42,437 nucleotides of DNA from a virus (IMGVR_UViG_3300025806_004450:1-42437); one strand, 5' to 3'; numbered from the stretch's first letter, positions 6,440 through 36,094 are shown. Notes: generated by a model from the sequence alone, not told the origin. A program made the numbers and translations.

Positions 6440-6498
6440 ATTTTTAATCCTTTTTCCAACTATCCAAAGGTATTATATATAAATATAAACTTTATTAT

Positions 6499-9400: not shown

Positions 9401-12400
9401 AATGACCCATCAGTTACGTAATCATTCCTAGATATTTCTTCTAAGTTAATTAAAGTTGTAACATCATTATTTTTTATTTGAGTGATTTCATCAATGTCAT
9501 TACTTGTTACCCCAGATATTAAACCTAAAGGGTAATTTTTCAATCTATAATAATCACTATAAATTACAATATCAGCGTTAGTCGCTTCAATTATCGCTCC
9601 AATATTATCTGCCGTTGATAACCCAAATGAAAAAACATCTGGGGCTGATAGATACGTGGTAACAACAAATCTTTTACCATTTGGTGAAATTTGACATTTC
9701 AAGAAATTACCACTAACAAAATCAAAATCAACTTCAGCACTATAATTACCCAATGTTACAGGGGTTAAATCACCAGCAACAGTTAAATTATATTGCCTTA
9801 AATTTTCACCCGATTGAAACACAAAAAAAGTTTTTAAATCATTAGAGAATGTAAATCCATGAGTCGTGTTAAAATTCCAACTATCCGATAATATTACACC
9901 TGAAAAATTATAAGGTGTTGCTAATGTATATCTCCTTACATTTGACCCAGTGCTAGTATATAAATTTAACCCATCATCCGTCATGAATAATTCATTACGA
10001 AATAAATTTTGTGTGAACGCAGTTGTACTAACTAACGTTAACGAACTTAAATCATGGGGTGTACTCATACTATAAATCTCAACAGTACCATCAGTTACAT
10101 CACCATTAGTATATGTTATGTGTAACCCATCAGGTGATACATGAAGACCCCCACCTTGACCTAAAGTTGCTGTACTAGCAGTTAAAGTTGCGGTTGTAAC
10201 ATCCCAAGGCGTTGATAATATATATTGTGTACAATTACTATTATGTAACCCTAAATATAATATAGTCCCATCACTTGACATTGACAAGGCCATAGGGCTA
10301 CCAGTAAAATCACCCTCACTACCAAAATCTAACATATAATTAGGGATGACTTTAAACCATAAATCTGAATTATCGTCAGTTTTAACATGTGATAAAGCAT
10401 TGATGTATTGAATTACTTGGTCTTTTGTTGACCCAGAACCAATCAAGTCAGTTGGGTAAATGTCAATGGTTTTACTTATCATATTATGAGTATGACCCGT
10501 AAGACTGTATCTATCATCTAAATTAATGGAAACTGTACTTCCACTTAATAAATTTAAATCTAAATCCCCAGTTAATTCATTAAATGTACCACCTGTTAAA
10601 TAATCATCTGTTGGTATATAATCAGTTATTTCAGATATTGTATGTGTATGACCAGTATTAGTTATTTCATTAAAATCATGTGTATGACCTGTTAATGAAT
10701 ATCTCCCATCTAAATTAACTGAAACTGTACTACCACTTTGAAGTGTGCTTTCAAATAATCCAGTGCTTGTATTAAATGTATGGCCAGTTAAGTAATCATC
10801 TGATAAACCGATATGAGTATGACCTGTTGTACTAAATATTTCAGTTAAATTTGTATCACCACTATATATTGTGTCACCACTTATTGAAGTAGCACTGATT
10901 GATATAAATGATGGGGTGTTTGTTATGGTCCAACCTGAAAGCGTGCTATCCCATTGGATAATATCTAAATTACTTTCACTACCACCACTCCAAGTAGTTT
11001 CTTGTAAATCATAAAAGTGTGGGTATCTATGTGGTCTAACAAATACACTACCGTTAGCATCATTATGAATTACAATTGCGAGTTCAATTTTTAAGTTAGG
11101 CGATATAGGTTCGATGTTAGTTAAACCACCAACAATTGTTGGGGAAACCCATAATAAATCACCATCATTCCAAGTTTCACCATAAGGCGCACCAGTTGCG
11201 TTTATACCACGAACTAAACCGAAATCAGTTACATATCCATCATCTCCATTAATAATATCTTCAGTTGCAATTCCCAAGGTATATTTAACTGGAATTGTGC
11301 CATCAGCAATCATATATTCACCAAGAATTTTACCACTAGAACCTAAAGTTCCAGCTGCATAAACAACTCTACCATTCTCAATAGTGGCCCCACTTTGATT
11401 TTTAACGTAATAAAAAAGTTCTTCACCAATTTGTTGTTGTACATTAGAGCCATGCATACCCAAACTTAAAGTACCATTATCTTCATCCCAATATATTCTA
11501 CCTTCAACAATAGTATTACCAGTATATCCAGTGTTAAATTGTATAAAATCAACAGGGTTTATTGTTGTTGCTGAAACATTAACCGCCACAACTTCATTAA
11601 AAATACCAGTACCTGTTACAGTAATGTCACCATTAACAGTTAAACCACTAACAGTGGTTAATGTAACACTTAAATCAGGTAAATCTTCATTTCGTTCAAT
11701 ATCAAACGTATTAGTTAAACCATTATAAGTAAATCCAGTTACAAAAGTATCCGTATAGGCCGAAGTATTTAAATACCTACCATCTAAATCATAAACAACA
11801 GTTCCACCTGAGACCCTAGTAAGAGTTACCTCCCCATTTGCTGTATTAAAATTACCTGAAGTAATATAATCATCTGATAAACCTATATGTGTATGCCCAG
11901 TTAATGAATATCTATCATCTAAATTAACACTATACGTACTTCCACTTAACCTAGTAAATTCTAATTCACCAGTATTTGTATTAAATGTAGTTCCAGTAGT
12001 ATAATCATCCGTTGGTATGTAATCAGTTATTTCAGATATTGTATGAGTATGCCCAGTAAGGCTGTATCTATCATCTAAATTAATTGTAACTGTTGAACCT
12101 GATTGAAGGTTTAAATCTAAATCCCCAGTATTTACATCAAAATCACCAGAAACTAAATAATCATCAGATAAACCAATGTGAGTATGTCCAGTTAGGCTAT
12201 ATCTTCCATCAAGGTTAACTGAAACAGTTGAACCTGATTGTAAGGTACTTTCAAATAAACCAGTTGAAGTATTAAATGTATGAGTTATTAAATAATCATC
12301 TGATAAACCAATATGAGTATGACCTGTTAATGAATATCTACCATCTAAATCATAAACAACAGTTCCACCTGATAATCTAGTTAAAGTCACTTCTCCAGTT

Positions 12401-15400
12401 CCAGTATTAAAATCACCATTTGATACATAATCATCTGTTGGTATATAATCAGTTATTTCGGATATTGTATGAGTATGACCTGTGTTAGTTATTTCATTAA
12501 AATCATGAGTATGCCCCGTAAGACTGTACCTTCCATCAAGGTTTTCAACAATAGTTCCACCTGAGACCCTAGTAAGGGTTAAATCACCATTTGTTGTGTT
12601 GAAATCACTATTTGATACATAATCATCTGATAAACCAATATGTGTATGCCCCGTTAGAGCGTATCTGTCGTCAAGGTTTATGGTAACTGTACTACCTGAT
12701 TGAAGGTTTAAATCTAAATCACCAGTTAATTCATTAAATGTACCACCAGTTAAATAATCATCAGATAAACCAATATGTGTATGTCCAGTAAGACTATATC
12801 TATCATCTAAATTAATAGAAACTGTACTTCCACTTAATAAATTTAAATCTAAATTACCAGTTAATTCATTAAAATCACCAGAAACTAAATAATCATCTGT
12901 ATTTGGCGTTTCAGTAAACCCAGTTAAATATCTATCATCTAAATTAATAGTAACTGTACTACCTGATTGAAGATTTAAATCTAAATTACCAGTATTTACA
13001 TCAAAATCACCAGAAACTAAATAATCATCTGATAAACCAATATGAGTATGTCCAGTTAGGCTATATCTATCATCTAAATTAATGGTAACTGTACTACCTG
13101 ACTGAAGATTTAAATCTAAATCACCAGTATTTACATCAAAATCACCAGAAACTAAATAATCATCAGATAAACCAATATGAGTATGACCTGTTAATGAATA
13201 TCTATCATCTAAATTAATAGAAACAGTTGAACCTGACTGAAGATTTAAATCTAAATCACCAGTTAATTCATTAAATGTACCACTTGTTAAATAATCATCT
13301 GTATTTGGCGTTTCAGTAAACCCAGTTAAATATCTACCATCTAAATCAACGGTAATATTATTATCATCACCAACATCATGTAATGTTAAAACACCGTCAC
13401 CCGTATTAAATGTCGCACCTGTAATTGAGTTATCATAAGCTATATCCCAATTAGTTGAATTATCAGTAAAATCAGTTATATCAGATATCTCATGCGTATG
13501 TCCCGTAAGACTGTACCTATCATCTAAATTAATTGTAACTGTACTACCAGATAATAAATTTAAATCCAATTCACCAGTACTTGTATTAAAAGTACCGCCA
13601 GTTAAATAATCATCAGATAAACCTACATGTGTATGTCCAGTTAATGAATATCTTCCATCAAGGTTGACCGAAACAGTGCTTCCACTTTGAAGTGTACTTT
13701 CAAATAAACCAGTTGAAGTATTAAATGTATGACCTGTTAAGTAATCATCTGATAAACCAATATGAGTATGCCCCGTAAGACTATATCTATCATCTAAATT
13801 AACACTATACGTATTACCGCTTAACCTAGTAAATTCTAATTCACCAGTATTTGTATTAAATGTAGTTCCAGTAGTATAATCATCCGTTGGTATGTAATCA
13901 GTTATTTCAGATATTGTATGAGTATGCCCAGTAAGGCTGTATCTATCATCTAAATTAATTGTAACCGTTGAACCTGATTGAAGGTTTAAATCTAAATCCC
14001 CAGTACTTACATTAAATGTACCACCTGTTAAATAATCATCTGTATTTGGTGTTTCAGTAAACCCAGTTAAATATCTATCATCTAAATTAATAGTAACCGT
14101 TGAGCCTGATTGAAGATTTAAATCTAAATCACCAGTTAATTCATTAAATGTACCACCTGTTAAATAATCATCTGATAAACCAATATGAGTATGTCCTGTT
14201 AGGCTATATCTATCATCAAGGTTTATTGTAACTGTACTTCCAGATAATAAATTTAAATCTAAATCACCAGTTAATTCATCAAAATCACCAGAAACTAAAT
14301 AATCATCTGTATTTGGTGTTTCAGTAAATCCAGTTAAATATCTACCATCTAAATCTTCGGTTATTGTATCACCTGATAATGTTCTTAACGTTAATTCACC
14401 ATTTAAAGTGTTAAATGTCATTCCTGTAACTACGTCACCTGAACCACCTACACCACCTGTACTATCAGTGAAATTAGCTGTTAAGGTACTACCATCTTTT
14501 TGTTGAAGAGTTATAGTTTTAGTTGCACTACCCGTAACAGTCATCCCAGTAATTGAATCATTGTATGCTGTATCCCAATTACTTGTATCACCAGAAGTGA
14601 AACCTAAATCAGTATTATATGTTCCACCACTTAACCTAGTAAATTCAATAATACCACTTGAAGGGTTAAATGTAGTTCCAGTAGTATAATCATCACCAGT
14701 TGTAGCTGATAATGGCAAATACCTACCATCAAGGTTAACTGAAACTGTACCACCTGATTGTAATGTACTTTCAAATAAACCATTTGAAGTGTTAAATGTA
14801 TGGTCAGTTAAATAATCATCTGATAAACCAATATGAGTATGCCCCGTTAGAGCGTATCTGTCGTCAAGGTTTATTGTAACTGTACTTCCAGATAATAAAT
14901 TTAAATCTAAATCACCAGTTAATTCATTAAATGTACCACCTGTTAAATAATCATCTGTATTTAATATGGTTGAAGCTGAGATAGTTAAATATCTACCATC
15001 TAAATCAACGTTATATGTATCACCACTTAATCTAGTAAATTCAATAATACCATCAGAGGTGTTAAATGTAGCCCCAGTGGTGTAATCATCTGATAAGCCG
15101 ATATGAGTGTGTCCAGTAAGACTATATCTACCATCAAGGTTTTCAACAATAGTTCCACCTGATAATCTAGTTAATGTTAAATCACCAGTACTTACATTAA
15201 ATGTAGTTCCAGTGATGTAATCATCAGTATTAATAGTATCCCCTGAACTTGCCGTGTAGTTATCTGTTAAGTATTCCCTAGTAATTAATACCCTACCAGT
15301 AGTTTCATTACTAATTAAGGTTGTTGTTAAACTTGGTACCACTATTGTTCTATCGGTATTCAATAAAAGAACTTTATCTTGTTGACCTTCAGTTATTTGA

Positions 15401-23633: not shown

Positions 23634-23780
23634 TTATATTTTATTATTTTTTTTAAGTAATCTCACTTTATTATATATTGAATGTAATGATTTATTTAAC
23701 TTAATCGCACATTTTGGTCCACCGATAGTTTTATAATTATTTATTAAAAAATCACTTTTAACTTGATTTTTATTATTTAT
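23634..23780 (-). other. Start-less open stretch on minus strand, possible gene remnant
   Basis: Between the truncated copy and the next gene the minus strand is open for 48 codons without an ATG. It ends ...YKTIGGPKCAIKLNK, SLHSIYNKVRLLKK and a TAA abutting the truncated copy's stop. The composition is more protein-like than expected for AT-rich spacer, so it may be the tail of a gene that once sat here. No family recognised; weak evidence. Confidence 0.25.
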
Positions 23781-23792
23781 TTAGTATATTTG
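23763..23792 (+). promoter_or_regulatory. Bacteroidota-type promoter for the glycan operon
   Basis: TTG at 23763-23765 and TATATTTG at 23785-23792 are separated by 19 nt. This matches the Flavobacterium/Bacteroides consensus of a -33 TTG element and a -7 TAnnTTTG element at the optimal spacing. Transcription would start about 7 nt further on, close to the ATG at 23808, leaving a short leader as is common in this phylum. It argues that the host RNA polymerase reads this operon and that the host belongs to the Bacteroidota. Confidence 0.75.
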
Positions 23793-23807
23793 TTTAAAAT
23801 AAAGATT

Positions 23808-25457
23808 ATGATAAGTATTGTTTGCTCTTCACAAAACGATTTAAATGAATTTAGTAAACATATAAAGAAAATGGCTGGTCACCCTAAAGTTGAATTTCTT
23901 GGTTATAAGAATGAAGGTAAATTCTCGTTAACTGAAATATATAATAGGGGTTTGAATGAAGCTAAATATGATATCGTGGTTTTTTTACACCACGACATCG
24001 AAATTCAAACTAAGCAATTCGCTAAAAAATTACAGAAAAATTATGACACCACTAATTATGGTGTTTTAGGTGTTGCTGGAACTAAATTGTTACCAGAGAC
24101 AGGTAAATGGTGGTCAGACCCCAAACAAATGTTTGGTAGAGTATGGCACACACATCAAGATAAAAAATTCTTATCTAAATATAGTGATGACCAAGGTAAT
24201 AACATTGAAGAGGTAGTTTCGGTTGATGGTGTTTTCTTTTCAGTTATGAAATCTAGATTGAAAGAAAATTTTGATGAATCTGTTGAGGGATTTCATTTTT
24301 ATGATATTGATTTCTGTTTTAAGAATTATTTAAAAGGTGTTAAAGTTGGCGTTCACACTAATATTGTTATTAACCACATGTCTATTGGTGAAACTAATGA
24401 CCAATGGGAAATAAATAGAGTTTTATTTTCTGAAAAATATAAAGATGACTTACCAGTTAAGATTGACAAAGAATTTGGTGTTAATCATAAATTTAATGTT
24501 TTAATTGCTTGCATAAATTTTAATAGTTATACTGGCTCTGAATTATATAACTTTGAATTAGCTAAAGGTTTGATTGAAAAAGGTTGTGATGTAACCATAT
24601 GTTCTAACATCGGGGGTGAGCTTTCATTAAAAGCAAAAAGGTTAGGTATTAAATTAGCTGATATTAACGAACCACCAGGTTATAAAAAGGGTGATGGTCA
24701 ATGGCAAATACAACAACCTGATGGTAAATTAGAGCAATCAGTTGAAGGTAGAATGTACCAAATTGGTGCGGTTAACTTTGATATTATGCATTTAAGTCAT
24801 ACACCAGTTGCTAAACTAATGACTCAATTATATCCTCAAATCCCAGCAATATCATCTATACATTCTGAAGTTATTTCATTGGAACACCCGATATTACATG
24901 ATAATATTAAAAAATATATCGCTATTCGACCTGAAATTAAGGATTACTTAATTTCGGAGCATAACATACCTGAAGAAAAAATTAAGGTTGTTTACAACCC
25001 AATTGATTCAAGTAGATTTAACACTAATTACACTAAAGTTGTAAATGGTAAGAAAGTCACTTTATTTGTTGGTACTATTGATTATTTAAGAAAAAATATG
25101 TTAGTTGATTTAGTTGGTAAAACTAAGGAAGAAAATGGTGAGTTATGGATTGTTGGTAGAGAGAATGGTGTTACTGCATCTGAAATAATTAATGATGAAA
25201 AACATGTAATTTATTATGGCCCACAAGCTAACATTGAGAGTTATATGAAAAAAGCTGATGTGACTGCTGGTATACTTTTAGGTAGAACAACTATCGAAGG
25301 TTGGATGTGTGGTAAAGGTGGTTGGATATATAATGTGGATGATAAAGGGTTTGTTTTAGGTAAAGAATTTCATAAAGTACCTGAAGATATAAATAAATTT
25401 AATTCTGAGTCAATTATAACTCAAATTATTGATGAATATAAAGAAATATTAAAATGA
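23808..25457 (+). CDS. Two-domain glycosyltransferase: GT-A part fused to GT4-like GT-B part (549 aa)
   Basis: The ATG at 23808 (MISIVCSSQNDL) is preferred over the in-frame 23763 start, because the latter lies on the promoter and the truncated copy also starts MISIV. Residues 1 to ~225 are a GT-A-like unit (AKYDIVVFLHHDIEI with a DxE/DxD-like site, VDGVFFSVMKSR, FHFYDIDFCFKNYLKG). Residues ~228 to 549 form a GT-B unit (FNVLIACINFNSYTGSE, IRPEIKDYLISEHNIPEE, KVVYNPIDSSRF, TLFVGTIDYLRKN, AGILLGRTTIEGWMCGKGG). Bifunctional enzymes of this type can add two sugars in succession. It leads the operon and overlaps the next gene by ATGA. Confidence 0.85.
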   Translation: MISIVCSSQNDLNEFSKHIKKMAGHPKVEFLGYKNEGKFSLTEIYNRGLNEAKYDIVVFLHHDIEIQTKQFAKKLQKNYDTTNYGVLGVAGTKLLPETGKWWSDPKQMFGRVWHTHQDKKFLSKYSDDQGNNIEEVVSVDGVFFSVMKSRLKENFDESVEGFHFYDIDFCFKNYLKGVKVGVHTNIVINHMSIGETNDQWEINRVLFSEKYKDDLPVKIDKEFGVNHKFNVLIACINFNSYTGSELYNFELAKGLIEKGCDVTICSNIGGELSLKAKRLGIKLADINEPPGYKKGDGQWQIQQPDGKLEQSVEGRMYQIGAVNFDIMHLSHTPVAKLMTQLYPQIPAISSIHSEVISLEHPILHDNIKKYIAIRPEIKDYLISEHNIPEEKIKVVYNPIDSSRFNTNYTKVVNGKKVTLFVGTIDYLRKNMLVDLVGKTKEENGELWIVGRENGVTASEIINDEKHVIYYGPQANIESYMKKADVTAGILLGRTTIEGWMCGKGGWIYNVDDKGFVLGKEFHKVPEDINKFNSESIITQIIDEYKEILK

Positions 25458-26170
25458 TAATAGTAACAACACTATACAATGGTGAAGAGTATATTGAAAA
25501 ATGTATTACATCATTAAAAGAACAAACACATAAAGATTTTACATGTTATATCACAGATGATTTATCAACAGACGGTTCTGTTGATAAAACTAAAGAATTA
25601 ATTGAAGGTGATGATAGATTTATACTTATAGAAAACAAAACAAAACATTATCAATCGGGTAACTATGACCAAGTAATTAGGAATAACTCCATTATTGACG
25701 ATAATGAAGTTATTGTAGAGGTTGATGGTGATGACTGGTTACCAGATAGTGAAACGTTAGAGCGAGTTGCTAAGGTTTATTCTGATGATGATATATGGAT
25801 AGCTAATGGGCGTTTTATTTATTCACATGGTGCTATGGGGTTTGCCCAAGAACAAATAATAAATAACATTAGAAAGGCTACATTTACAGCATCTCATATT
25901 AGGACGTGGAGAGCATTTTTATGGCGAAATATTAAGTTGGGTGATTTAAAAGATGAAAATGGTGACTATTGGGACGCTGCTTGTGATTTGGCGTTTATGT
26001 ATCCAATGTTAGAAATGTCAGGGGATGAACATTATAAATTTATGACTGAAATTAATTATGTTTATAACGAACAAAACCCATTAAATGAACATAAAGTTAT
26101 TATGGGTGATGTTAATAAAAATGTTGGTAAAATTCGTAGTATGCCCCCATATAAAAGGTTATATAAATGA
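25454..26170 (+). CDS. GT2-family glycosyltransferase (238 aa)
   Basis: A classic GT-A fold: MIIVTTLYNGEEYIEKCITS, TDDLSTDGSVDKT at 34-46, and VEVDGDDWLPD at 89-98, where DGDD binds the metal and UDP- or GDP-sugar. Residues ~150-200 contain the acceptor-side segment (RTWRAFLWRNIKLGDLKD, WDAACDLAFMYPMLEM). Length is normal for a soluble single-domain GT2, with no membrane anchor. The start and the following start both overlap by ATGA, so it is translationally coupled on both sides. Acceptor unknown; it probably extends a glycan begun by the preceding two-domain enzyme. Confidence 0.9.
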   Translation: MIIVTTLYNGEEYIEKCITSLKEQTHKDFTCYITDDLSTDGSVDKTKELIEGDDRFILIENKTKHYQSGNYDQVIRNNSIIDDNEVIVEVDGDDWLPDSETLERVAKVYSDDDIWIANGRFIYSHGAMGFAQEQIINNIRKATFTASHIRTWRAFLWRNIKLGDLKDENGDYWDAACDLAFMYPMLEMSGDEHYKFMTEINYVYNEQNPLNEHKVIMGDVNKNVGKIRSMPPYKRLYK

Positions 26171-26970
26171 TTTATTGTAATTTAAAAGGTGGATTGGCAA
26201 ATATGTTTTTTGAAATTGCCGCAGTTAAATCTATGGCAATAGATAAGGGGGTTGATTGTAGTTTCCCTAATATTACAGCGCAATTAAATTTAGTTAATAA
26301 CGATAACAAATATAACCCAATTATAAAACATGGTTGGGAATATATGGAAATATTTAATATTCTGAATACTACGCCACCAAGAGAAGTACTCCCAACCTTT
26401 ACTTACCCTCTTCATTACCAACCAATTGATTTACCAAAAGATAATTTCATTGTAAATGGGTTTTTTCAAAGTGAAAAATATTTCATACATAATAGGGCTG
26501 AAATTCTAGAATTTCTTAAAATTCCAGATAGTATTCTTAAAATAATCAACGAGAAGTATTCTACAATTTTAAGAACTAGGACTACATCATTACACGTCAG
26601 ACGTGGTGATTATGTAAGGCACCCTAACCATTATCATCAACAAACAATTGAATATTTTAATGAAGCTATTGATAGGTTAAAAGATATTACGGACACCGTA
26701 GTTATTTTTAGTGATGACATACCATGGTGTAAAAATAATTTAAAATATGAAAATGTTGTTTATATTTCAGATGAAAAGGATTATATTGAAATATACCTAA
26801 TGTCTCTTTGTGAAAATAACATTACTGTTAACTCATCATTTTCTTGGTGGGGTGCTTGGTTAAATCAAAATGAAAATAAAGTGGTTATTGGTCCTAAAAA
26901 ATGGTTTGGGCCAGCATTAGCCAAATATAACGCTAACGATATAGTACCTGAAACATGGATAAAAATTTAA
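26167..26970 (+). CDS. GT11-family alpha-1,2-fucosyltransferase-like protein (267 aa)
   Basis: GT11 signatures are all visible: LKGGLANMFFEIAAVKSMA at 6-24, SLHVRRGDYVRHP at 141-153 (the HxRRGDY motif binding the GDP-fucose phosphates), IFSDDIPWCKNNL, and VNSSFSWWGAWLN at 221-233. Members transfer L-fucose from GDP-fucose to a galactose or similar acceptor in an alpha-1,2 linkage and occur in O-antigen and capsule clusters of Bacteroidota. Length fits the family. A GDP-mannose dehydratase lies 7 kb downstream, consistent with a GDP-6-deoxyhexose donor. The family call is firm; donor and acceptor are inferred. Confidence 0.9.
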   Translation: MIYCNLKGGLANMFFEIAAVKSMAIDKGVDCSFPNITAQLNLVNNDNKYNPIIKHGWEYMEIFNILNTTPPREVLPTFTYPLHYQPIDLPKDNFIVNGFFQSEKYFIHNRAEILEFLKIPDSILKIINEKYSTILRTRTTSLHVRRGDYVRHPNHYHQQTIEYFNEAIDRLKDITDTVVIFSDDIPWCKNNLKYENVVYISDEKDYIEIYLMSLCENNITVNSSFSWWGAWLNQNENKVVIGPKKWFGPALAKYNANDIVPETWIKI

Positions 26971-26971
26971 T

Positions 26972-27391
26972 ATGGAAAAAATATATTCTAAAATAGAACC
27001 TGATAAACTATTACATATAATCAATAGATTAGATGAAATTGAAGGTAGAACTGAAGTAGTCGATGAAAATAATTTCATTCAATGTGCAACATTAAAAATG
27101 GAGAAAGGGAAAACCTTCCCACCTCATAGGCACATAACCAAAGATAGACATTATCCAGAACAGATAGCTCAAGAATCTTGGGTGGTAATTAGGGGAAGTG
27201 TGAAGTGCATATTTTATGATTTAGATAATACAATAATTGCGGAGCCGATTTTAAAGGCTGGTGACGCTAGTTTTACACTATACGGTGGTCACACTTACTT
27301 AATTCTAGAAGATGATACAATTGTATACGAATATAAAACTGGACCGTATGAGGGACAGAAATTAGATAAAACATTTATAGATGAGAAATGA
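26972..27391 (+). CDS. Cupin-fold protein of sugar-modification clusters (139 aa)
   Basis: A single cupin barrel. Motif 1 contains GKTFPPHRHITKD with the paired histidines, followed by AQESWVVIRGSVKCIFYDLD. Motif 2 contains LKAGDASFTLYGGHTYLILED. The ending YEYKTGPYEGQKLDKTFI is characteristic of small cupins found in polysaccharide gene clusters. Some cupins of this size are nucleotide-sugar ketoisomerases or epimerases (FdtA/QdtA, WxcM type), but the sequence is not close enough to the patterns I know to assign a reaction. It lies between GT11 and FabH-like genes and overlaps the latter by 11 bp, pointing to a role in making the sugar or its acyl group. Confidence 0.75.
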   Translation: MEKIYSKIEPDKLLHIINRLDEIEGRTEVVDENNFIQCATLKMEKGKTFPPHRHITKDRHYPEQIAQESWVVIRGSVKCIFYDLDNTIIAEPILKAGDASFTLYGGHTYLILEDDTIVYEYKTGPYEGQKLDKTFIDEK

Positions 27392-28325
27392 TAATGTAAC
27401 AATCCTTGGAACAGGTTCATACTTACCAAGCAATGTGGTAACAAATGAAGATTTGTGTAAACACATCACAACAACACCAGAATGGGTTGAAGATAAATTA
27501 GGTATAATTGAACGTAGAATAACAGTAGATGAATCTACAGCCGATTTAGCGTATCAAGCCGCAATTAGGACTTTAGCCAATTCATTAACCGATAAAGAAG
27601 AATTAGATTTAATCATAGTGGTCACATCAAGTCCTGACCAGATATCACCATCAACTGCATGTACGTTACATAAGATGTTAGACATTAAGCGAGACGTACC
27701 TTCATTTGACATTAATGCTGTATGCGCTGGATTTGTATATGCAATGTCATTCGCATCAACATTAATTAGTAGTGGAACTTATAAAAAAATTCTAATTGTT
27801 GCAAGCGAAACATATTCCAAACATACAAATGTTCATGATAGAAATTGTGTATTTTTTGGTGATGGAGCTGGTGGCTTAGTTTTAGGCACATCAAAAAACG
27901 GTTGGAACGTTAGTAATATAGCGTCAAATGGAAATGGTTCAGGTATGACAGGATTTAGAATGCCGTTATCGGACCCGTTTACTATGAAGGGTAAGGAAGT
28001 ATGGGAACAAGCAATACGTGTGTTACCAGAATCTATTAAACTAGTAATGGAAGAAGCTGAACTTGAGGTAGATGATATTAAATTATTAGTGCCACATCAA
28101 CCAAGTATTAATATACTAAAAGTGGTTGCAAAGGAAGTCGGAATGTCGATGGATAACGTAAAGTTGGTGCAAGATAAATATGGAAATATAGCTGGCGCAT
28201 CAATACCAATTGCGTTAAATGATGCATTCGAGAATAACGAAATTGAAAAGGGTGATAAAATTGTATTATCGGCTGTAGGTTCTGGATGGGCTTGGGGTTC
28301 GATGGTAATAAATTACGAAGATTAA
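27381..28325 (+). CDS. 3-oxoacyl-ACP synthase III-like enzyme (FabH/KAS III family)
   Basis: The complete KAS III catalytic triad is present: Cys115 in INAVCAGFVYAM, His239 in LLVPHQPSINI and Asn269 in DKYGNIAGASIP. Other family features are LGTGSYLPSNVVTNEDL at the N-terminus, the GDGAGGLVLG loop at 160-169 and MKGKEVWEQA at 202-211. Length (314 aa) is typical. KAS III enzymes condense an acyl-CoA with malonyl-ACP; relatives in O-antigen clusters make short hydroxyacyl groups for amino sugars. It is followed by a FabG-like reductase and a hexapeptide acyltransferase, which fits synthesis and transfer of a 3-hydroxyacyl group. It is very unusual in a phage. Thiolase-fold identity is firm; pathway is inference. 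Confidence 0.92.
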   Translation: MRNDNVTILGTGSYLPSNVVTNEDLCKHITTTPEWVEDKLGIIERRITVDESTADLAYQAAIRTLANSLTDKEELDLIIVVTSSPDQISPSTACTLHKMLDIKRDVPSFDINAVCAGFVYAMSFASTLISSGTYKKILIVASETYSKHTNVHDRNCVFFGDGAGGLVLGTSKNGWNVSNIASNGNGSGMTGFRMPLSDPFTMKGKEVWEQAIRVLPESIKLVMEEAELEVDDIKLLVPHQPSINILKVVAKEVGMSMDNVKLVQDKYGNIAGASIPIALNDAFENNEIEKGDKIVLSAVGSGWAWGSMVINYED

Positions 28326-28326
28326 T

Positions 28327-28983
28327 ATGAAAACAATTGCAGTATTTGGTGGAACTGGTGGGTTAGGTAAAAAACTAGTCCCTTTATTGGCTGAAAAATA
28401 TCATGTTATACCGTTAGGTAGTTCTGTCGTTGATATTACCAATTTAGAATCAGTTAAGCAATGGTTTTCTGATGCGGAAAAACATTACAATGTTGATATT
28501 GTTTTGAATATGAGTGGTGTTAAATATGATACATTTTTAAGTAAAATCACTTCTGATGACGTAGAAGACATTGATAAGATGTTAGATGTTAACATTAAAG
28601 GGAATATAAATATGTTAGCCGCATGTTTACCTCATATGATTGAAAGAGGGTATGGAAGAGTGATTGCGATATCATCTGTTTTTTCTGAAATGAACGTACC
28701 TAAGAATTCAATATACTGTGCGTCAAAAGCATTCGTAGATAGATTGATAGGTACCGCCAATAAAGAAAACGTAAGATTCGGCATTACATGCAATACAATC
28801 CAATTAGGTTATTGGGATGGTGGTATGGCATATAGAGTAGATGAGAAGTACGTTCAAATGGCTAAAGATAAAGTAGGGTTAAAGAGATTTGGTACCGCTG
28901 AAGAATTATATAATACGGTAAATTTCATTGTAGACAATGAATATGTATCTGGAACAAATTTAAAAATAGATGGGGGATTATAA
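28327..28983 (+). CDS. Short-chain dehydrogenase/reductase, FabG-like (218 aa)
   Basis: Rossmann-fold SDR. The nucleotide-binding GGTGGLGK is at 8-15, LNMSGVKY at 60-67 replaces the NAG motif, the catalytic serines are in AISSVFSE, and Y130-x-x-x-K134 is in SIYCASKAF. The C-terminus (DNEYVSGTNLKIDGGL) is the hallmark of FabG-like reductases rather than of extended SDRs such as GDP-fucose synthase. A 3-oxoacyl reductase acting after the FabH-like enzyme is the simplest reading; a sugar ketoreductase is the alternative. It begins 1 bp after the FabH gene and overlaps the next gene by 14 bp. Confidence 0.88.
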   Translation: MKTIAVFGGTGGLGKKLVPLLAEKYHVIPLGSSVVDITNLESVKQWFSDAEKHYNVDIVLNMSGVKYDTFLSKITSDDVEDIDKMLDVNIKGNINMLAACLPHMIERGYGRVIAISSVFSEMNVPKNSIYCASKAFVDRLIGTANKENVRFGITCNTIQLGYWDGGMAYRVDEKYVQMAKDKVGLKRFGTAEELYNTVNFIVDNEYVSGTNLKIDGGL

Positions 28984-29503
28984 GAATTTTAAAAAAGTGG
29001 GTGAAGACGTTAGAGTAGATTCGTCAGCTCAAATAGTTAGACCAGAATTAATAGAATTAGGAAGTCACATTTCAATTGACATGTGTGTGTATTTCTCTAC
29101 TTCAGCTATACTTGGAGATTATATTCATATAGCCCCACAAGTTAGTATAATTGGTGGTGGTGATTCAGTATTAATAATGGAAGATTTCAGTGCAATTGCT
29201 ACTGGTACACGAGTTATATGTGCAAGCGATGACTTCAAAAAAGGTTTCCTGAATCCATTTATACCGAGAGAATATAGAAATGTGATTAATGAACCAGTGA
29301 TATTTAGGAAGTATTCATCTACTGGAGTTAATTCAGTTGTAATGCCAGGTGTTACATTAGCTGAAGGTTCTGTACTTGGGGCTAATTCATTATTAACAAA
29401 AGATACTGAACCATGGGGAATTTATGTTGGTTCGCCAGCGAAAAGAATTGCAACAAGAGATAAAGAGTTAATTTTAAAAGGAGCTAAAGAGCTTGGGTAT
29501 TAA
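28970..29503 (+). CDS. Left-handed beta-helix (hexapeptide) acyltransferase (177 aa)
   Basis: Hexapeptide-repeat pattern throughout: VRVDSSAQIVRPELIELGSH, ILGDYIHIAPQVSIIGGG, then SSTGVNSVVMPGVTLAEGSV and LGANSLLTKDTEPWGIYVGSP. The ending (VGSPAKRI) is typical of sugar O- and N-acyltransferases using acetyl- or acyl-CoA/ACP. Where many relatives have a catalytic histidine in the APH turn, this one has Gln (APQVSI), so the active-site base may differ. The start lies inside the last codons of the reductase gene. Downstream of ketoacyl synthase and reductase genes it is a good candidate for attaching their product to a sugar. Confidence 0.88.
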   Translation: MGDYKNFKKVGEDVRVDSSAQIVRPELIELGSHISIDMCVYFSTSAILGDYIHIAPQVSIIGGGDSVLIMEDFSAIATGTRVICASDDFKKGFLNPFIPREYRNVINEPVIFRKYSSTGVNSVVMPGVTLAEGSVLGANSLLTKDTEPWGIYVGSPAKRIATRDKELILKGAKELGY

Positions 29504-29505
29504 TT

Positions 29506-30324
29506 ATGAGTAAATATATAACTAATGAAATTTTCCCACATGGGTTAGGGACTAGAATGTTTTTATTGACAAACGCTATTGGTTATTCTATTATCACTAA
29601 TACTGAATTTGTAATAACACCTTTTTCTCATCAAGCAGTACCAAACGAATTTAGTGATAAAAATTCAATGACCAAAAGAGTTGATTACTTATCTGATTGT
29701 AAGAGATGGGATTTGATACTAAATTTAGAGAAAAAAAAAATAACCGACATTGAAGATTTATCTGAGGTGTTATATTTGTCACACCCATCGTCAAATAATG
29801 ATGTACCACCAATTGAGGGACAGTTTGAATTATATAACAAAATTAGAGGGTTTCGTGATGAAATAAAAAAAGATTATTTGGTCATACCAACTAAAGTTAC
29901 TAGTGACGTTATTAACGTAAGCGTTCATATTAGAAGAGGTGATATAATCAATGATAGACATAGATTTATAGGTAATAAGTATTATTTAGATAGTCTTAAC
30001 ATTTTAGAGACGACTTTAAAAGAAAGAGGTATTAAGTATGATATAACTATATACGTACAAAAAGAAGGTTTTGTCGCCACAGGTTTTGAAGATTTTAATA
30101 TTAAATACGATACCGATATCTCTGATAATGAAACGTGGGTTGCTATGGTAAACTCTGACATTCTATTAGGGAGTAACAGTGCTTTCAGTACTAGTGTTGG
30201 TATGTTGATGGATGGAATTTTCATTCACCCAACTAGTAATAATTTTACCGATATGACCGATTGGTTATACGGTAACGAGTTAGACAAGAACTCAATTAAT
30301 AAAAAATTAGGATATGAATCATAA
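29506..30324 (+). CDS. Fucosyltransferase-like protein with HIRRGD motif (272 aa)
   Basis: The N-terminal FPHGLGTRMFLLTNAIGYSI resembles the G-L-G/N-x-M-F start of GT11 and related fucosyltransferases. VSVHIRRGDIINDRHRF near residue 140 is the basic GDP-binding motif, and SDILLGSNSAFSTSVGMLMDG resembles the C-terminal donor-site serine motif. Overall similarity to the GT11 at 26167 is low, so this is a distant member of the same superfamily rather than a recent duplicate. It begins 2 bp after the acyltransferase and overlaps the next gene by 11 bp. Specificity is unknown. Confidence 0.7.
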   Translation: MSKYITNEIFPHGLGTRMFLLTNAIGYSIITNTEFVITPFSHQAVPNEFSDKNSMTKRVDYLSDCKRWDLILNLEKKKITDIEDLSEVLYLSHPSSNNDVPPIEGQFELYNKIRGFRDEIKKDYLVIPTKVTSDVINVSVHIRRGDIINDRHRFIGNKYYLDSLNILETTLKERGIKYDITIYVQKEGFVATGFEDFNIKYDTDISDNETWVAMVNSDILLGSNSAFSTSVGMLMDGIFIHPTSNNFTDMTDWLYGNELDKNSINKKLGYES

Positions 30325-31138
30325 ATTAGAATTTGTAAAAATATCTTCAAAACATGAAGTAGGTGGTGTTGGATTTGCTGGTAATATGTTTATCATATTG
30401 AGCACATTATCACTTGTGGGACAGGATGAAAAACTTTATATTGATATGAGTAAAACAGATTGTATCTGTACGGAAAAAGGACCGTTGTTACATAACACAA
30501 ATAATTGTTGGGAATATTACTTTGACCAAGTTAATATTGAAGGTGAAACCACTAACAACATGAATAGTTTAGTTATAGGTGGGCTAACATACGAAAATAG
30601 AGATATGTATATGTACCCAGAAAATTTCATAGCACTTAAAGAAAAATTTAATTATAATTTCCAATTAAAATCTTATATTAAAACATTAATAGATGATTTC
30701 TATGACAATAATATTAAAGGTAAAGTAACATTAGGTGTTCAAGTTAGATTAACTGATATGAAACACCATCATAATGTATCACCATTGAGTAGTTACGTTA
30801 TAAAAATAAATGAAATTTTATTAAAACACCCAGAAATAGAACAAATATTTTTAGCCACAGATGATAGTTTAGTTATTCCAGAATTAAGAGCTGCGTTAGA
30901 CGTTCCAATTATTTGTTACGATAATATGTTTAGAGCTGATAAAGCTAATAGACATCATGACCCACACGCTAGGTTGCATGATACTAGAAAAAACCATAGA
31001 TATAAATTAGGTATTGAATGTTTACAAGAAATCCTTACATTAACAAAATGTGATTACTTATTGAAAGCAGATTTATCGTCAATTTCTATTGTCGCTAGTA
31101 TTCTAAGTGAAAATATTAAAACCGTATATAAAGTATGA
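30314..31138 (+). CDS. Putative O-FucT/NodZ-like glycosyltransferase (274 aa)
   Basis: Residues ~138-150 (TLGVQVRLTDMKHHH) and ~178-190 (IEQIFLATDDSLVIPEL) match the V-x-R-x-T-D and FLATDD motifs of the GT23/NodZ and O-fucosyltransferase superfamily, which use GDP-fucose. DYLLKADLSSISIVASIL near the C-terminus corresponds to their D-x-L-x-x-S-S-S-x-x-S-x-x-A motif. The first Arg motif reads RLTD rather than RRTD. It overlaps the previous gene by 11 bp and the next by ATGA. A third fucosyltransferase-type enzyme in the same operon is remarkable. Superfamily assignment is moderate; substrate unknown. Confidence 0.65.
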   Translation: MNHKLEFVKISSKHEVGGVGFAGNMFIILSTLSLVGQDEKLYIDMSKTDCICTEKGPLLHNTNNCWEYYFDQVNIEGETTNNMNSLVIGGLTYENRDMYMYPENFIALKEKFNYNFQLKSYIKTLIDDFYDNNIKGKVTLGVQVRLTDMKHHHNVSPLSSYVIKINEILLKHPEIEQIFLATDDSLVIPELRAALDVPIICYDNMFRADKANRHHDPHARLHDTRKNHRYKLGIECLQEILTLTKCDYLLKADLSSISIVASILSENIKTVYKV

Positions 31139-31821
31139 TTTATATAATTGGAGATAGTCATGTATCAGTATTTTCTGGAACCGATAAAGGGTTGAATGGG
31201 TTAAGACACATTCAACCAGAATTTGGCACTTGTTATACTTTAAGTGGTGGTTCGTTAAGACCACACAATGTATTCGAACAGAGAATACCGTATTTTTGTC
31301 CAATTAAAATTGGTTCAAATACGGCTTATAATTCATTCGATAAATTACCAGTAATTGAACAGGTAATTGAAGAATATGAGATATCAGAAAAAGATTATAT
31401 ATTCTTATGTTTTGGTGAAATAGATATTAGAAACCATATTGGGTTTAATGCTGAAGCTGAAGATATATTAATAACTGAAGGGATATATAGGTGTGTTGAT
31501 AGATATATGAAAACCGTAGATTATCTAAATGATAAATACTCTAATGTTGGAGTATATGGTTCACCACCATCATCACGTAAAGGTGATAGCCCAGTTAAAG
31601 AATATAAAGATGAAATTTTTAGAAATGTTATGACAAAGGAATTTAATAAACACCTTAAATATAACTGTAATAAGAATGATATTATATTTAAAGATATTTC
31701 AGAAAAATTAATGTTAGAAAATGGTAGGACTGACCCTAAATTTATTATGGATGATATCCATTTATCACAAGAGGTAATGCCGTTTTTAAAAGAAGAATTT
31801 AAAGATTTAATAGATGAATGA
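31135..31821 (+). CDS. SGNH/GDSL-like hydrolase or acyl-modifying protein (228 aa)
   Basis: The order of blocks fits the SGNH fold: GDSH at 6-9 (nucleophile Ser8), LCFGEIDIRNH at 91-101 (block III, with Asn100 in place of the usual G-x-N-D), and DDIHLS at 206-211 (the D-x-x-H catalytic pair, D206 and H209). Such proteins add or remove O-acyl groups on polysaccharides. In an operon with acyl-chain and hexapeptide acyltransferase genes, it may trim or move an acyl group on the phage-directed glycan. No signal peptide is seen, so it acts in the cytoplasm. Fold call moderate to good. Confidence 0.7.
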   Translation: MIYIIGDSHVSVFSGTDKGLNGLRHIQPEFGTCYTLSGGSLRPHNVFEQRIPYFCPIKIGSNTAYNSFDKLPVIEQVIEEYEISEKDYIFLCFGEIDIRNHIGFNAEAEDILITEGIYRCVDRYMKTVDYLNDKYSNVGVYGSPPSSRKGDSPVKEYKDEIFRNVMTKEFNKHLKYNCNKNDIIFKDISEKLMLENGRTDPKFIMDDIHLSQEVMPFLKEEFKDLIDE

Positions 31822-32626
31822 TAGGGTGGAAATAAATATGATAGGTGGTGGGTTTCAACATAGTCCGTCTACATCTGGTTACGAACCATTATATGTAAAA
31901 TGGGTCAAGGGTAGCCATACAGCACCAATATCTATGCACATCGACTTTCTAATTAAAACACCACCAAATCCAAATACAATAAATTATGGTTGGTTATCTG
32001 AATCTAAAGACATCAACACTGGGTTATATGAGTGGTGTGCTAATAACTTAGATTTCTTAAAGAAACATTATAAGTTAGTATTCACACATGACGTTAGTTT
32101 AACCGAACTATCTAACATCTTTGCGTTACAAGTTAGTGGTAAATCATTTATCGCTGAAAGTGATGGGTTGGTGTACCCTAAGACTAAATTGGTTTCCATG
32201 ATTGCGTCTAATAAAAAGATGTGCCCAGCTCATATTTATAGGCATGAAATGATTGCTAAATTCAGTCCACATTGTGACCACTTCGGAAGAGGGTTCCGTG
32301 AAATACCTAATAAGATTGATGGTTTAAAAGATTATTGTTTTTCCATTGCAATGGAGAATGGGACGTACCCCAATATGGTTAGTGAAAAAATCACTGATTG
32401 TTTTATGACTGGCACAATACCGATTTTTTATGGCATTGAAAATATAGGTGATTTCTTTAACACTGATGGGATAATAACACTAAATGACGACTTCAAAATA
32501 GAATCATTATCTTTTGATTTATATAATTCTAAAATTGAAGCAGTAAAAGAGAATTTTGAGACCGCTATGAATATGCTAGTTTCAGAAGACCATCTTTACT
32601 TAAAATACATTAAAAATGAAATATAA
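31814..32626 (+). CDS. GT10-family alpha-1,3/1,4-fucosyltransferase-like protein (270 aa)
   Basis: The C-terminal donor domain is diagnostic: HFGRGFREIPNKIDGLKDY at 156-174, then CFSIAMENGTYPNMVSEKI at 175-193, then TDCFMTGTIPIFYG. This corresponds to the FAIAxEN...YVTEKLxDAFxxGTVPVYxG block of GT10, which binds GDP-fucose. The N-terminal acceptor domain is short, giving 270 residues against about 350 or more in many members. It overlaps the neighbouring genes by 8 and 11 bp. It is the second clearly recognisable fucosyltransferase family in this operon, after GT11. Confidence 0.9.
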   Translation: MNDRVEINMIGGGFQHSPSTSGYEPLYVKWVKGSHTAPISMHIDFLIKTPPNPNTINYGWLSESKDINTGLYEWCANNLDFLKKHYKLVFTHDVSLTELSNIFALQVSGKSFIAESDGLVYPKTKLVSMIASNKKMCPAHIYRHEMIAKFSPHCDHFGRGFREIPNKIDGLKDYCFSIAMENGTYPNMVSEKITDCFMTGTIPIFYGIENIGDFFNTDGIITLNDDFKIESLSFDLYNSKIEAVKENFETAMNMLVSEDHLYLKYIKNEI

Positions 32627-33329
32627 AACAATACATAGCTTAGGGAGTAGATGTCAAAATTCAGATATATTAAAACATTATAATTATCGAGAATTTTCAG
32701 GGTTTTTTGATTTTATGAATACTTTAAAGGTTGAAACCATTAAACATATTTTAGAAGACGATTTCAACGAAATTCTTAAACCTGAAAACAACTTTACCTT
32801 GTTATGTAATCAACTAACCATTGACCCAGAAACAAGACTTCCATTACCAACATCGATGAGAACCAGTAATAAATTTTATGATGCTGACCATACTGATGTT
32901 CATGGTGCTATATTTCCACACCACGATTTGAATACTGAAAAAGATTATAATCATTTTTTGAAATGTAAAAAAAGGTTTAAAAAATTAAAGGATTATAAGA
33001 CTCTTTTTAATTATTCTTATAATACATGGGAGAATAATCTTACAATTGATGATATGGAACATATCGTAACTTCTTTAAAAGAGGTTTATGGGTTTACTAA
33101 CTTTAAGGTTTGTTTCATAGGAATAGAAAAGGGTTTAGAATCAACATATAAACAGACGTTAGAATCTGAATTTTATGATAATTGGAGTCTAACAATTAAC
33201 CTTAGTAGTTTTACAGGTGGGTTATTTGGTAAACCATTGGATAATGAAAATTATATTAACATAATAAAAAACTATGATATCGATAATGTCAGAGTAACAA
33301 AAGAAGAAATAGATAATTATGAGTTTTAA
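32616..33329 (+). CDS. DUF1796-like (papain-like cysteine peptidase fold) protein (237 aa)
   Basis: The start (TIHSLGSRCQNSDILKHYNYREFSGFFDFM) matches the beginning of the DUF1796 family: S-L-G-x-x-C, then R-x-x-S-x-x-F-D-W. The middle contains HGAIFPHHDL and a KKRFKKLKDYKTLFNYSYNT segment, also typical of that family. These proteins are annotated as putative papain-like cysteine peptidases, mainly from fold prediction, and frequently sit in polysaccharide gene clusters of bacteria and large viruses. The candidate nucleophile is Cys13. Function in glycan synthesis is unknown. The gene is coupled by 11-bp overlaps at both ends. Confidence 0.7.
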   Translation: MKYKTIHSLGSRCQNSDILKHYNYREFSGFFDFMNTLKVETIKHILEDDFNEILKPENNFTLLCNQLTIDPETRLPLPTSMRTSNKFYDADHTDVHGAIFPHHDLNTEKDYNHFLKCKKRFKKLKDYKTLFNYSYNTWENNLTIDDMEHIVTSLKEVYGFTNFKVCFIGIEKGLESTYKQTLESEFYDNWSLTINLSSFTGGLFGKPLDNENYINIIKNYDIDNVRVTKEEIDNYEF

Positions 33330-33912
33330 AGTAGTAACACAATTCGAAAATGAAGTTGCCGAATTTTTTGGCGCACCATACGCAATAGCGGTGGATAGTT
33401 GTACACATGGTATTGAACTATGTCTAAGATTAAAAGATGTGCAAAGTATACATGTACCAAAACATACATATATTTCTGTGCCATTTTTAGCAAATAAATT
33501 AGGTATTAGCTTAAGATGGACTGATGAAAATTGGGTTGATTATTATAATTTAAGTTATGGAAATGTAATAGATGCGGCAGTACTTTGGAAAAAAAATAGT
33601 TATGTGCCAAATACATTTATGAATTTGAGCTTCCAATATCAAAAACATTTAAGCCTTGGTAGAGGTGGGATGATATTATGTGATAATAAAAAAGATGCGA
33701 TAAAGTTAAAGAAGATGTCATATGATGGTAGGTTACCAGATATACCTTGGAGAGACCAAAATATAGACACATTTGGTTATCATTATTATATGACCCCAGA
33801 AACGGCACAAATGGGATTGGATAAATTATCAAAGGCAATTGAAACGACCCCTAGACAATGGGTAGTTGAAGACTGGCCTGACTTAACTAAAATGGATATT
33901 TTTAATAGGTAA
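33319..33912 (+). CDS. Short DegT/DnrJ/EryC1-type aminotransferase-like protein (197 aa)
   Basis: The order of segments matches the PLP-binding large domain of sugar aminotransferases: FENEVAEFFGAPYAIAVDSC, THGIELCLRL, VPKHTYISVPFLANKLG, and LSFQYQKHLSLGRGGMILCD at 103-122 with K109 at the Schiff-base position. Full-length family members are about 370 residues and finish with a small C-terminal domain that is absent here. Because the reading frame closes neatly (IFNR, TAA) and the fold core is intact, this is probably a minimal variant rather than a frameshifted gene. If active it would aminate a keto-sugar, for example the product of the downstream dehydratase. Activity is uncertain. Confidence 0.78.
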   Translation: MSFKVVTQFENEVAEFFGAPYAIAVDSCTHGIELCLRLKDVQSIHVPKHTYISVPFLANKLGISLRWTDENWVDYYNLSYGNVIDAAVLWKKNSYVPNTFMNLSFQYQKHLSLGRGGMILCDNKKDAIKLKKMSYDGRLPDIPWRDQNIDTFGYHYYMTPETAQMGLDKLSKAIETTPRQWVVEDWPDLTKMDIFNR

Positions 33913-35044: not shown

Positions 35045-36022
35045 ATGTCAATAATAAGATATTTAAAAAGAAAAATAACTTTACTATCACTAGCATTATC
35101 TAGGGTTGAGAAGTCTTCACTTAATCAACACTCAGACGCTTTAGGGAGCGAAGGTACTGTACATGAAACAATGAATCAAGGTTCAATGGCTGATGCTCTA
35201 TTAAGGGGTGAAATAACTATGCCAGTAAAAGAACTTAGGTGGCGTTTATATAAAATTTTGACTGAATCTAAGTCTAAGACGGCTAAGATTACTGGTTATG
35301 ATTCGGATGGGCTTCCCATAGTTGAAACATATACCATTGAAAAACATAACTTATCTAAAATTAGTTGTGATGAATTTGATTCGTATGATGTTGAGTTAGT
35401 TATTAAAAACGAGGATATTATTAAGTCTACTGTGGAATCATTCGATAATAAAGATTTAAATGTTTTAGATAAAACTGAAATCGATGATTATGATGAAAAT
35501 AAAACAAAACACGATTTAATTGGGGTTGAAAATTGGAGTGGTAGAACTTTAGGTGAAATTTCATTTGACGATATGGTATCTTCAATGAAATCTAAAAAAA
35601 CTATTTATGTTAGTAGAGAAATAAGACCTAAATTTGAAATAGAATCTTATACTAAGAAATTGGTAATTAGAAAGATTAATGAAACTGAGAGGTTAATGGA
35701 ATTTTATTTATCACAATACCCTGATGAGTATGATAGAAAAACAAGAATGTTAATTTCAGAAATCAAAAAAGCTAAACAGAACCCTAGGGCTTCTGATTTA
35801 TTAGATATTAATAAAGTCGGTTTCATTAGTGATAAAGCAATTGGTTCAGATGATGGGTTAGAATATGAATATGATATTAAGAAATTTGATAAAATAGTAG
35901 AATTCAATGGCCACTACGTTATTAAATTTATTGCTGACGTTACTATTAATGGTGATAATATCTTTGAAAAGTATAAATTATCTGAATTAGAGTTAAAGTA
36001 TGAAAATAAAATGGCTAAATAG
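35045..36022 (+). CDS. Hypothetical protein, possibly structural (325 aa)
   Basis: The N-terminal helix is basic and hydrophobic (MSIIRYLKRKITLLSLALSR). A conserved-looking segment follows: TMNQGSMADALLRGEITMPVKELRWRLYKIL. The rest is charged, alternating alpha/beta, and ends in a beta-rich segment (FNGHYVIKFIADVTINGDNI). No enzyme motif is recognised. The gene ends in a perfect hairpin that overlaps its stop codon. Its place between gmd and phoH gives little help; a virion or assembly protein is only a guess. Confidence 0.6.
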   Translation: MSIIRYLKRKITLLSLALSRVEKSSLNQHSDALGSEGTVHETMNQGSMADALLRGEITMPVKELRWRLYKILTESKSKTAKITGYDSDGLPIVETYTIEKHNLSKISCDEFDSYDVELVIKNEDIIKSTVESFDNKDLNVLDKTEIDDYDENKTKHDLIGVENWSGRTLGEISFDDMVSSMKSKKTIYVSREIRPKFEIESYTKKLVIRKINETERLMEFYLSQYPDEYDRKTRMLISEIKKAKQNPRASDLLDINKVGFISDKAIGSDDGLEYEYDIKKFDKIVEFNGHYVIKFIADVTINGDNIFEKYKLSELELKYENKMAK

Positions 36023-36030
36023 CCATTTTA
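36007..36030 (+). terminator. Hairpin overlapping a stop codon
   Basis: A perfect 10-bp stem, TAAAATGGCT (36007-36016) and AGCCATTTTA (36021-36030), around an AAAT loop. The TAG stop of the 325-residue gene lies at 36020-36022, at the loop/stem edge. T-rich sequence follows (TGTTTAGTTTTGTTTTTTT). It is the first of two terminator-like hairpins within 90 bp. Confidence 0.75.
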
Positions 36031-36060
36031 TGTTTAGTTTTGTTTTTTTGTAATTATATT

Positions 36061-36094
36061 AAATGTGAGTTTAAGAAAAGACTCACATTTTTTT
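36061..36094 (+). terminator. Hairpin plus T-tract directly against the phoH start codon
   Basis: AAATGTGAGT (36061-36070) pairs perfectly with ACTCACATTT (36081-36090) around a 10-nt loop. A run of seven T (36088-36094) ends at the base before the phoH ATG at 36095. It has the layout of an intrinsic terminator, yet no promoter fits between it and the gene, so it may act as an attenuator or as a structure controlling phoH translation. Confidence 0.75.

Follow-up and report, generated by a model that had tools for sequence, protein, structure and literature searches.

A KAS III, FabG-like and AntD-like gene cassette in a phage glycan cluster, with a predicted role in supplying and transferring an acyl group to a nucleotide sugar

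A bacterial precedent for joining an acyl group to an amino sugar is the viosamine island of Pseudomonas syringae, which consists of the genes vioA, vioB, vioS, vioR, acp, vioM, and vioT and for which a route to dTDP-N-(3-hydroxybutyryl)viosamine through vioS (KAS III), vioR (reductase), vioB and acp has been proposed (PMC3927599). Deletion of vioR abolishes the modified sugar in this species (PMC3927599). Among viruses, Mimivirus makes N-acetylviosamine (PMC9614988), T4-like cyanophages have glycan clusters that contain a GDP-mannose 4,6-dehydratase (GMD) (PMC9602691), and fabH was absent from the 173 prophages covered by a survey of Rhodobacteraceae (PMC8224337). The literature searched, outside which subscription journals largely fell, contained no description of a KAS III gene within such a cassette in a phage. 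Here we describe three adjacent genes, for a KAS III protein, a short-chain dehydrogenase/reductase (SDR) and an acyltransferase, on the viral DNA IMGVR_UViG_3300025806_004450:1-42437, the whole 42,437 nucleotides of which are referred to as the window. In our view these genes probably provide and transfer the acyl group in a nucleotide-sugar pathway encoded by the phage, which would yield GDP-N-(3-hydroxyacyl)-perosamine or an isomer of it for a phage-made glycan.

The phage locus resembles the viosamine island in that a KAS III, a 3-oxoacyl reductase and an N-acyltransferase are found beside a sugar aminotransferase, and an FkbM methyltransferase is also present in some of the phage loci. 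The product of the island, which carries 3-hydroxybutyryl on a 4-amino-4,6-dideoxy sugar, decorates bacterial flagellin. In contrast to the island, the phage genes point to GDP-mannose chemistry (GMD), the acyltransferase is AntD-like, the aminotransferase is of half length and no acyl carrier protein (ACP) was found in the window. With the GDP-perosamine pathway, based upon GMD and a synthase of the PerA/RfbE type, the phage shares GMD as well as a DegT protein in which the catalytic Lys and Asp are conserved, but this protein has about 200 amino acids (aa) instead of about 370. The glycan clusters of T4-like cyanophages and jumbo phages (e.g., S-SCSM1; PMC9602691, PMC7824862) have GMD, fucosyltransferase-type and other glycosyltransferases in common with the window, whereas cultured phage records contain no close KAS III match; cyanophage S-SCSM2R possesses the compact DegT but gave no KAS III match. 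The Mimivirus pathway is likewise a virus-encoded route to an N-acylated 4-amino-4,6-dideoxyhexose for the particle, although it belongs to a eukaryotic virus, employs a UDP-sugar and adds N-acetyl rather than a made-to-order acyl group (PMC9614988).

The first protein of the cassette is, as judged from its sequence, a complete member of the KAS III/FabH subfamily and is predicted to carry out condensation. It scores 302.5 bits against TIGR00747 (fabH), above the curated cut-off of 292.1, and 315.8 bits against NF006829 (cut-off 249), and its alignment to solved FabH proteins is nearly full-length. The residues Cys115, His239, and Asn269, to which an earlier sequence-only reading of this DNA had drawn attention, correspond by alignment to C112, H244, and N274 of E. 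coli FabH, and the triad is kept in 46 out of 46 distinct viral KAS III sequences. A phylogenetic tree was also constructed for 109 KAS III proteins, including 36 viral representatives. In this tree, 33 of the viral representatives formed one supported clade (100/94) that adjoined Bacteroidota KAS III proteins and was separate from the proteobacterial FabH of plsX-fabH-fabD loci. No grouping of the viral proteins with the housekeeping FabH of such loci was seen, and a recent capture from a proteobacterial fatty-acid fabH locus was rejected on the basis of this tree. A grouping with non-condensing thiolase-fold proteins, which the sequence-only reading had named as the result that would speak against it, did not occur in this tree, from which such proteins had been left out. 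The sister group of the viral clade is provisional, since the bootstrap had yet to converge completely and the tree included a restricted set of bacterial proteins. Matches on bacterial genome contigs were mostly ordinary FabH loci recovered through short shared peptides, with no close bacterial cassette among them; the nearest glycan-like case was a short Bacteroidota contig (L188), where a KAS III (44%) lies beside an SDR and a GNAT gene.

The second protein shows both features of the classical SDR superfamily, namely a cofactor motif (GGTGGLG) and Y130-x3-K134. The Tyr130 and Lys134 noted in the earlier reading are indeed invariant in an alignment of five phage SDRs and have their counterparts in E. 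coli FabG, and the best PDB profile matches are mostly 3-oxoacyl-ACP reductases (about 1e-21). The label FabG, which that reading had also applied, goes too far. As the score against TIGR01830, the 3-oxoacyl-ACP reductase equivalog, is 111.2 bits and thus far under the cut-off of 297.75, we refer to this protein as FabG-like and not as FabG proper.

For the third protein, the closest solved relatives are the PDB entries 3VBI-3VBP, which were matched at 2.9e-28 with a single sequence and at about 5e-48 with a profile, while the next family followed at 1.1e-8 and about 1e-15, respectively. The relationship to these entries extends over 161 aligned residues, of which 56 (35%) are identical. We take 3VBI-3VBP to be AntD of Bacillus cereus, an N-acyltransferase of D-anthrose biosynthesis, reportedly the subject of a 2012 study by Kubiak and Holden that is cited in PMC8141488. 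AntD transfers 3-hydroxy-3-methylbutyryl from coenzyme A (CoA) to the 4-amino group of dTDP-4-amino-4,6-dideoxyglucose. If this identity is correct, then a clear sequence relative of the phage enzyme already takes its acyl group from a 3-hydroxyacyl donor and places it on a 4-amino-4,6-dideoxy sugar. The phage protein is 35% identical to AntD and differs from it by another acyl supply, by a sugar that is probably GDP-linked and by an Ala at a position where a Ser has been mutated in one of the structures. Among the solved left-handed beta-helix acyltransferases it is closest to AntD, and it is predicted to be an AntD-like sugar N-acyltransferase that would acylate a nucleoside diphosphate (NDP)-linked 4-amino-4,6-dideoxyhexose.

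Genes for making such an acceptor are present in the same cluster. The top PDB matches of the GMD are GMD structures (about 1e-93), and its score against TIGR01472 is 381 bits, below the cut-off of 415. The compact DegT protein has 3BN1, a perosamine synthetase, as its best PDB match (5e-9 by profile), and the Lys and Asp of pyridoxal phosphate (PLP)-dependent aminotransferases are both in place, with Lys109 and Asp85 being invariant in 32 aligned phage sequences. An AlphaFold model built from these 32 sequences has a predicted local distance difference test score (pLDDT) of 94.2 and a predicted template modelling score (pTM) of 0.91, as against a pLDDT of 58 with 6 sequences as input. In Foldseek searches this model matched DegT sugar aminotransferases, with GDP-perosamine synthase among the top matches (E about 1e-9) and template modelling scores of about 0.7 by query and about 0.38-0.40 by target. 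A full-length DegT of 355 aa is located directly upstream of GMD on the phage contig L198 (IMGVR_UViG_3300025009_000051), and this replacement supports the role proposed for the compact protein. The compact DegT, which at about 200 aa has half of the usual size, is conserved across the 32 phage sequences and was found in Flavobacterium phages and huge uncultured phages as well as in S-SCSM2R. The sequence-only reading had suggested that a 3-hydroxyacyl thioester could be passed to a sugar, and this suggestion is made considerably stronger by the AntD-like identity of the acyltransferase together with GMD and DegT as acceptor genes in its cluster.

If the KAS III protein supplies the AntD-like enzyme, its presence is expected to follow the lineage of the acyltransferase. 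A scan for the acyltransferase was pooled with the earlier loci to give 60 distinct AntD-like proteins, and on the tree of these proteins the presence of KAS III changes 6 times, in comparison to a mean of 20 upon shuffling, none of the 500 shuffles being as low. Sixteen KAS III-linked AntD-like proteins, including that of the window, form one clade (100/97), and the two genes are at most 14 nucleotides (nt) apart in 14 of 27 KAS III-bearing representatives. Since phage relatedness contributes to this clustering, the lineage tracking is supportive and not proof. Loci that lack KAS III can likewise contain the core of AntD-like, DegT and GMD genes, in some cases with an SDR only. Other acyl supplies are indicated by ACP genes. 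In L198 the order is ACP (5908-6204), one open reading frame (ORF), KAS III, AntD-like, one ORF, the full-length DegT and GMD, whereas in three loci lacking KAS III (L253, L265, and L267) an ACP gene overlaps the AntD-like gene; in L265 (7320-10380) a compact DegT, AntD-like, ACP, an ORF that by eye is AMP-dependent-ligase-like, and an SDR stand in a row. These arrangements support an acyl thioester as the donor and suggest that the window's phage draws on host ACP or CoA. In addition, the 642-kb phage L194 (LR756502) has an ACP-like ORF (18.9 bits) at 7231-7530, with a fused epimerase/AntD-like protein on one side and a compact DegT on the other.

These results also bear on the proposal that KAS III and the SDR serve host lipid or lipid A metabolism during infection, their position near sugar genes being incidental. 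The KAS III protein scores as a FabH, the SDR resembles 3-oxoacyl-ACP reductases, and prophages carrying fabG-acpP-fabF have been reported (PMC8224337). However, both genes lie within the glycan cluster, the viral KAS III proteins group apart from fatty-acid FabH, and the presence of KAS III follows the acyltransferase lineage, and hence we regard a purely lipid-related role as improbable.

Building upon the gene identities, the conserved catalytic residues, the close packing of the genes, their recurrence in many phages and the lineage tracking, we infer the catalytic steps, the length of the acyl chain, the identity and stereochemistry of the sugar, the carrier and the decorated surface as follows. 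GMD would convert GDP-mannose to GDP-4-keto-6-deoxymannose, and the compact DegT would aminate it at C4 to give GDP-perosamine or a stereoisomer. KAS III would condense a short acyl-CoA, by default acetyl-CoA, with a malonyl thioester, for which host malonyl-ACP is the likeliest and a plausible candidate, to form a 3-ketoacyl thioester. The SDR would reduce this to the 3-hydroxyacyl thioester, a step for which host FabG could substitute in phages without the SDR. The AntD-like enzyme would then attach the 3-hydroxyacyl group, with 3-hydroxybutyryl as the default guess, to the 4-amino group, and the glycosyltransferases of the cluster would build the acylated sugar into a glycan of either the virion or the infected cell.

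A number of observations weigh against parts of this scheme. In the KAS III proteins, positions corresponding to E. coli FabH R36, F87, and R249 are occupied by Lys in 37, Ser in 40, and Asn in 32 of the 46 viral sequences, respectively. In E. coli FabH these three residues are located at sites of primer or ACP recognition, F87 lining the acyl pocket and R249 belonging to the ACP docking region, and with these changes the primer and carrier may differ from those of the E. coli enzyme. An Acinetobacter baumannii enzyme is also without R36 and R249 and has yet been modelled as an ACP partner (PMC8036411); therefore, the E. coli rules cannot predict the primer or carrier of the viral proteins. 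The same changes, along with HQP instead of HQA in the majority of the viral proteins, favor the possibility that KAS III no longer condenses and instead acts as an acyltransferase or CoA-only enzyme that hands an acyl group straight on to a sugar or glycan, as do some FabH-like proteins of secondary metabolism. We assign this a small probability, as the Cys-His-Asn triad is complete in every viral sequence, the cassette has a dedicated N-acyltransferase and some relatives are accompanied by ACP genes. On the scheme's debit side are also the SDR, whose phage type is near KAS III in 30 of 57 loci and is missing in about half, so that the 3-hydroxy state is not certain everywhere, and the ACP, since searches of the window and of 16 related records revealed neither an ACP gene nor a PP-binding domain. 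The molecule name of 3VBI-3VBP in the PDB is 'Galactoside O-acetyltransferase', and in alignments the window's acyltransferase has Ala at the position of the Ser that was changed to Ala in the 3VBK chain. Furthermore, the DegT protein, with 197 aa, is not a full-length (about 370 aa) GDP-perosamine synthase, and it is a candidate 4-aminotransferase whose activity is predicted. Lastly, GMD could instead feed the synthesis of GDP-fucose for the GT10 and GT11 enzymes. In that case GMD would serve these and NodZ-like transferases and the acyl module would act on a different, host-made amino sugar, as might be suggested by the fucosyltransferase-type genes of the cluster and by a second GMD beside an NAD-epimerase gene in some relatives. 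In those relatives, however, the other GMD copy comes immediately after DegT; moreover, AntD-like, DegT and GMD genes are close together in many loci, and no GDP-fucose synthase was recognised in the window. The fucose alternative is thus unlikely, though it retains some weight, and GMD is preferably read as the source of the 4-keto sugar for DegT.

The cassette is not confined to the window. Two scans of IMG/VR for KAS III relatives, with neighborhoods of up to 8 kb on each side and near-duplicates counted, detected such relatives on at least 57 contigs (34-100% identity). An AntD-like gene is present in 42 of these 57 loci, a compact DegT in 40 and GMD in 29. Relatives of 54-86% identity are found in the same gene setting on other viral contigs, which places the cassette far beyond chance. 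The statement of the sequence-only reading that no common phage counterpart is known therefore fails for these environmental contigs, whereas the KAS III matches in cultured phage records do not exceed about 41% identity. The latter matches were not used, as they are distant and for the most part come from records that lack annotation and may in some cases be bacterial DNA. In several relatives, genes for an FkbM methyltransferase and a PhyH-type dioxygenase occur within the cassette (L005 3266-4198; L008 7282-7917 and 10125-11027). Capsid and terminase genes were not found in the 42-kb window by the searches made, and bacterial glycan clusters can hold similar genes, both of which would fit bacterial polysaccharide DNA misfiled as viral. 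This explanation is extremely improbable: among 17 records, made up of the window and 16 relatives, a T4-like Gp23 was detected in 11 and a terminase in 9, on contigs carrying the cassette, and contig L006, with both of these, shares seven genes with the window outside of the glycan cluster. The window itself is an IMG/VR record with PhoH and other PHROG matches, and the same cassette is present on larger contigs. Bacterial contamination was rejected in view of the Gp23 and terminase on related contigs.

The coordinates of the main features are given in Table 1. The three ORFs of the cassette are exactly where the sequence-only reading had placed them, and the 14-bp overlap that it described between the SDR and acyltransferase genes (28970 versus 28983) is also present. 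Between 23763 and 33912, each gene either overlaps the next one or lies within 2 nt of it, and thus the cassette belongs to one dense run of glycan genes, with GMD 73 nt further on. The order is GT2/GT4, GT2, GT11, cupin, KAS III, SDR, acyltransferase, two ORFs (one NodZ-like), GDSL, GT10, DUF1796, and DegT, followed by GMD. The WbuC-family cupin is the usual upstream neighbor of the cassette and accompanies the core in most viral loci, whether KAS III is present or not. Between the glycan cluster and PhoH, two terminator-like stems are located (36006-36090). The minus strand from 2741 to 17913 holds an ORF of 3804 aa (6499-17913) adjoining one of 1232 aa, for which no Pfam or PHROG family match was obtained. 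Searches of the window for Rfam families and tRNAs gave no matches, and promoter-like sites were not more frequent in it than in shuffles.

Table 1. Features of the glycan-gene run in the window.
Feature	Coordinates	Strand	Evidence and remarks
Two-domain glycosyltransferase, first of the packed run	23763..25457	+	PF13712 and PF13439
GT2 glycosyltransferase	25454..26170	+	PF00535; 4-nt overlap with each neighbor
GT11 (fucosyltransferase-type) glycosyltransferase; candidate GDP-6-deoxyhexose user	26167..26970	+	PF01531 1.5e-25
WbuC-family cupin, 139 aa	26972..27391	+	TIGR04366 44.2 bits, cut-off 42
KAS III (FabH subfamily), 314 aa, Cys115-His239-Asn269	27381..28325	+	TIGR00747 302.5 bits; PDB FabH 1.8e-64
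FabG-like SDR, 218 aa, Tyr130/Lys134; predicted 3-ketoacyl reductase	28327..28983	+	PF13561 2.3e-29
AntD-like left-handed beta-helix N-acyltransferase (predicted), 177 aa	28970..29503	+	PDB 3VBI-3VBP 2.9e-28
NodZ-like protein (weak, under Pfam cut-off)	30314..31138	+	PF05830 6.6e-4
GT10 (fucosyltransferase-type) glycosyltransferase	31814..32626	+	PF00852 1.3e-7
Compact DegT-type aminotransferase, 197 aa; predicted 4-aminotransferase	33319..33912	+	PF01041 1.4e-17
GMD, 332 aa	33986..34984	+	PF16363 1.4e-114

The logic of linking an acyl group to an amino sugar is already known from the viosamine island. What is new here is the phage setting, the compact aminotransferase, the swappable acyl-supply modules and the acyltransferase lineages that track the presence of KAS III. 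On a broader reading, for and against which we find the balance about even, many T4-like environmental phages draw on GDP-mannose and on fatty-acid intermediates of the host to make their own N-(3-hydroxyacyl)-4-amino-4,6-dideoxyhexose, by means of a fixed core that includes the half-length PLP aminotransferase and exchangeable acyl modules consisting of KAS III alone, KAS III with the SDR or with ACP, or ACP and a ligase-like gene. If this is true, these phages would go beyond borrowing host sugars and exploit the initial step of fatty-acid synthesis in the host for tailored sugar decorations. The compact aminotransferase, if active, would be unusually small for its fold and can be tested alone, and the modular swapping offers a direct route to testing the acyl group of each phage. 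The acylated sugar decorations could govern adsorption, superinfection or recognition by other phages.

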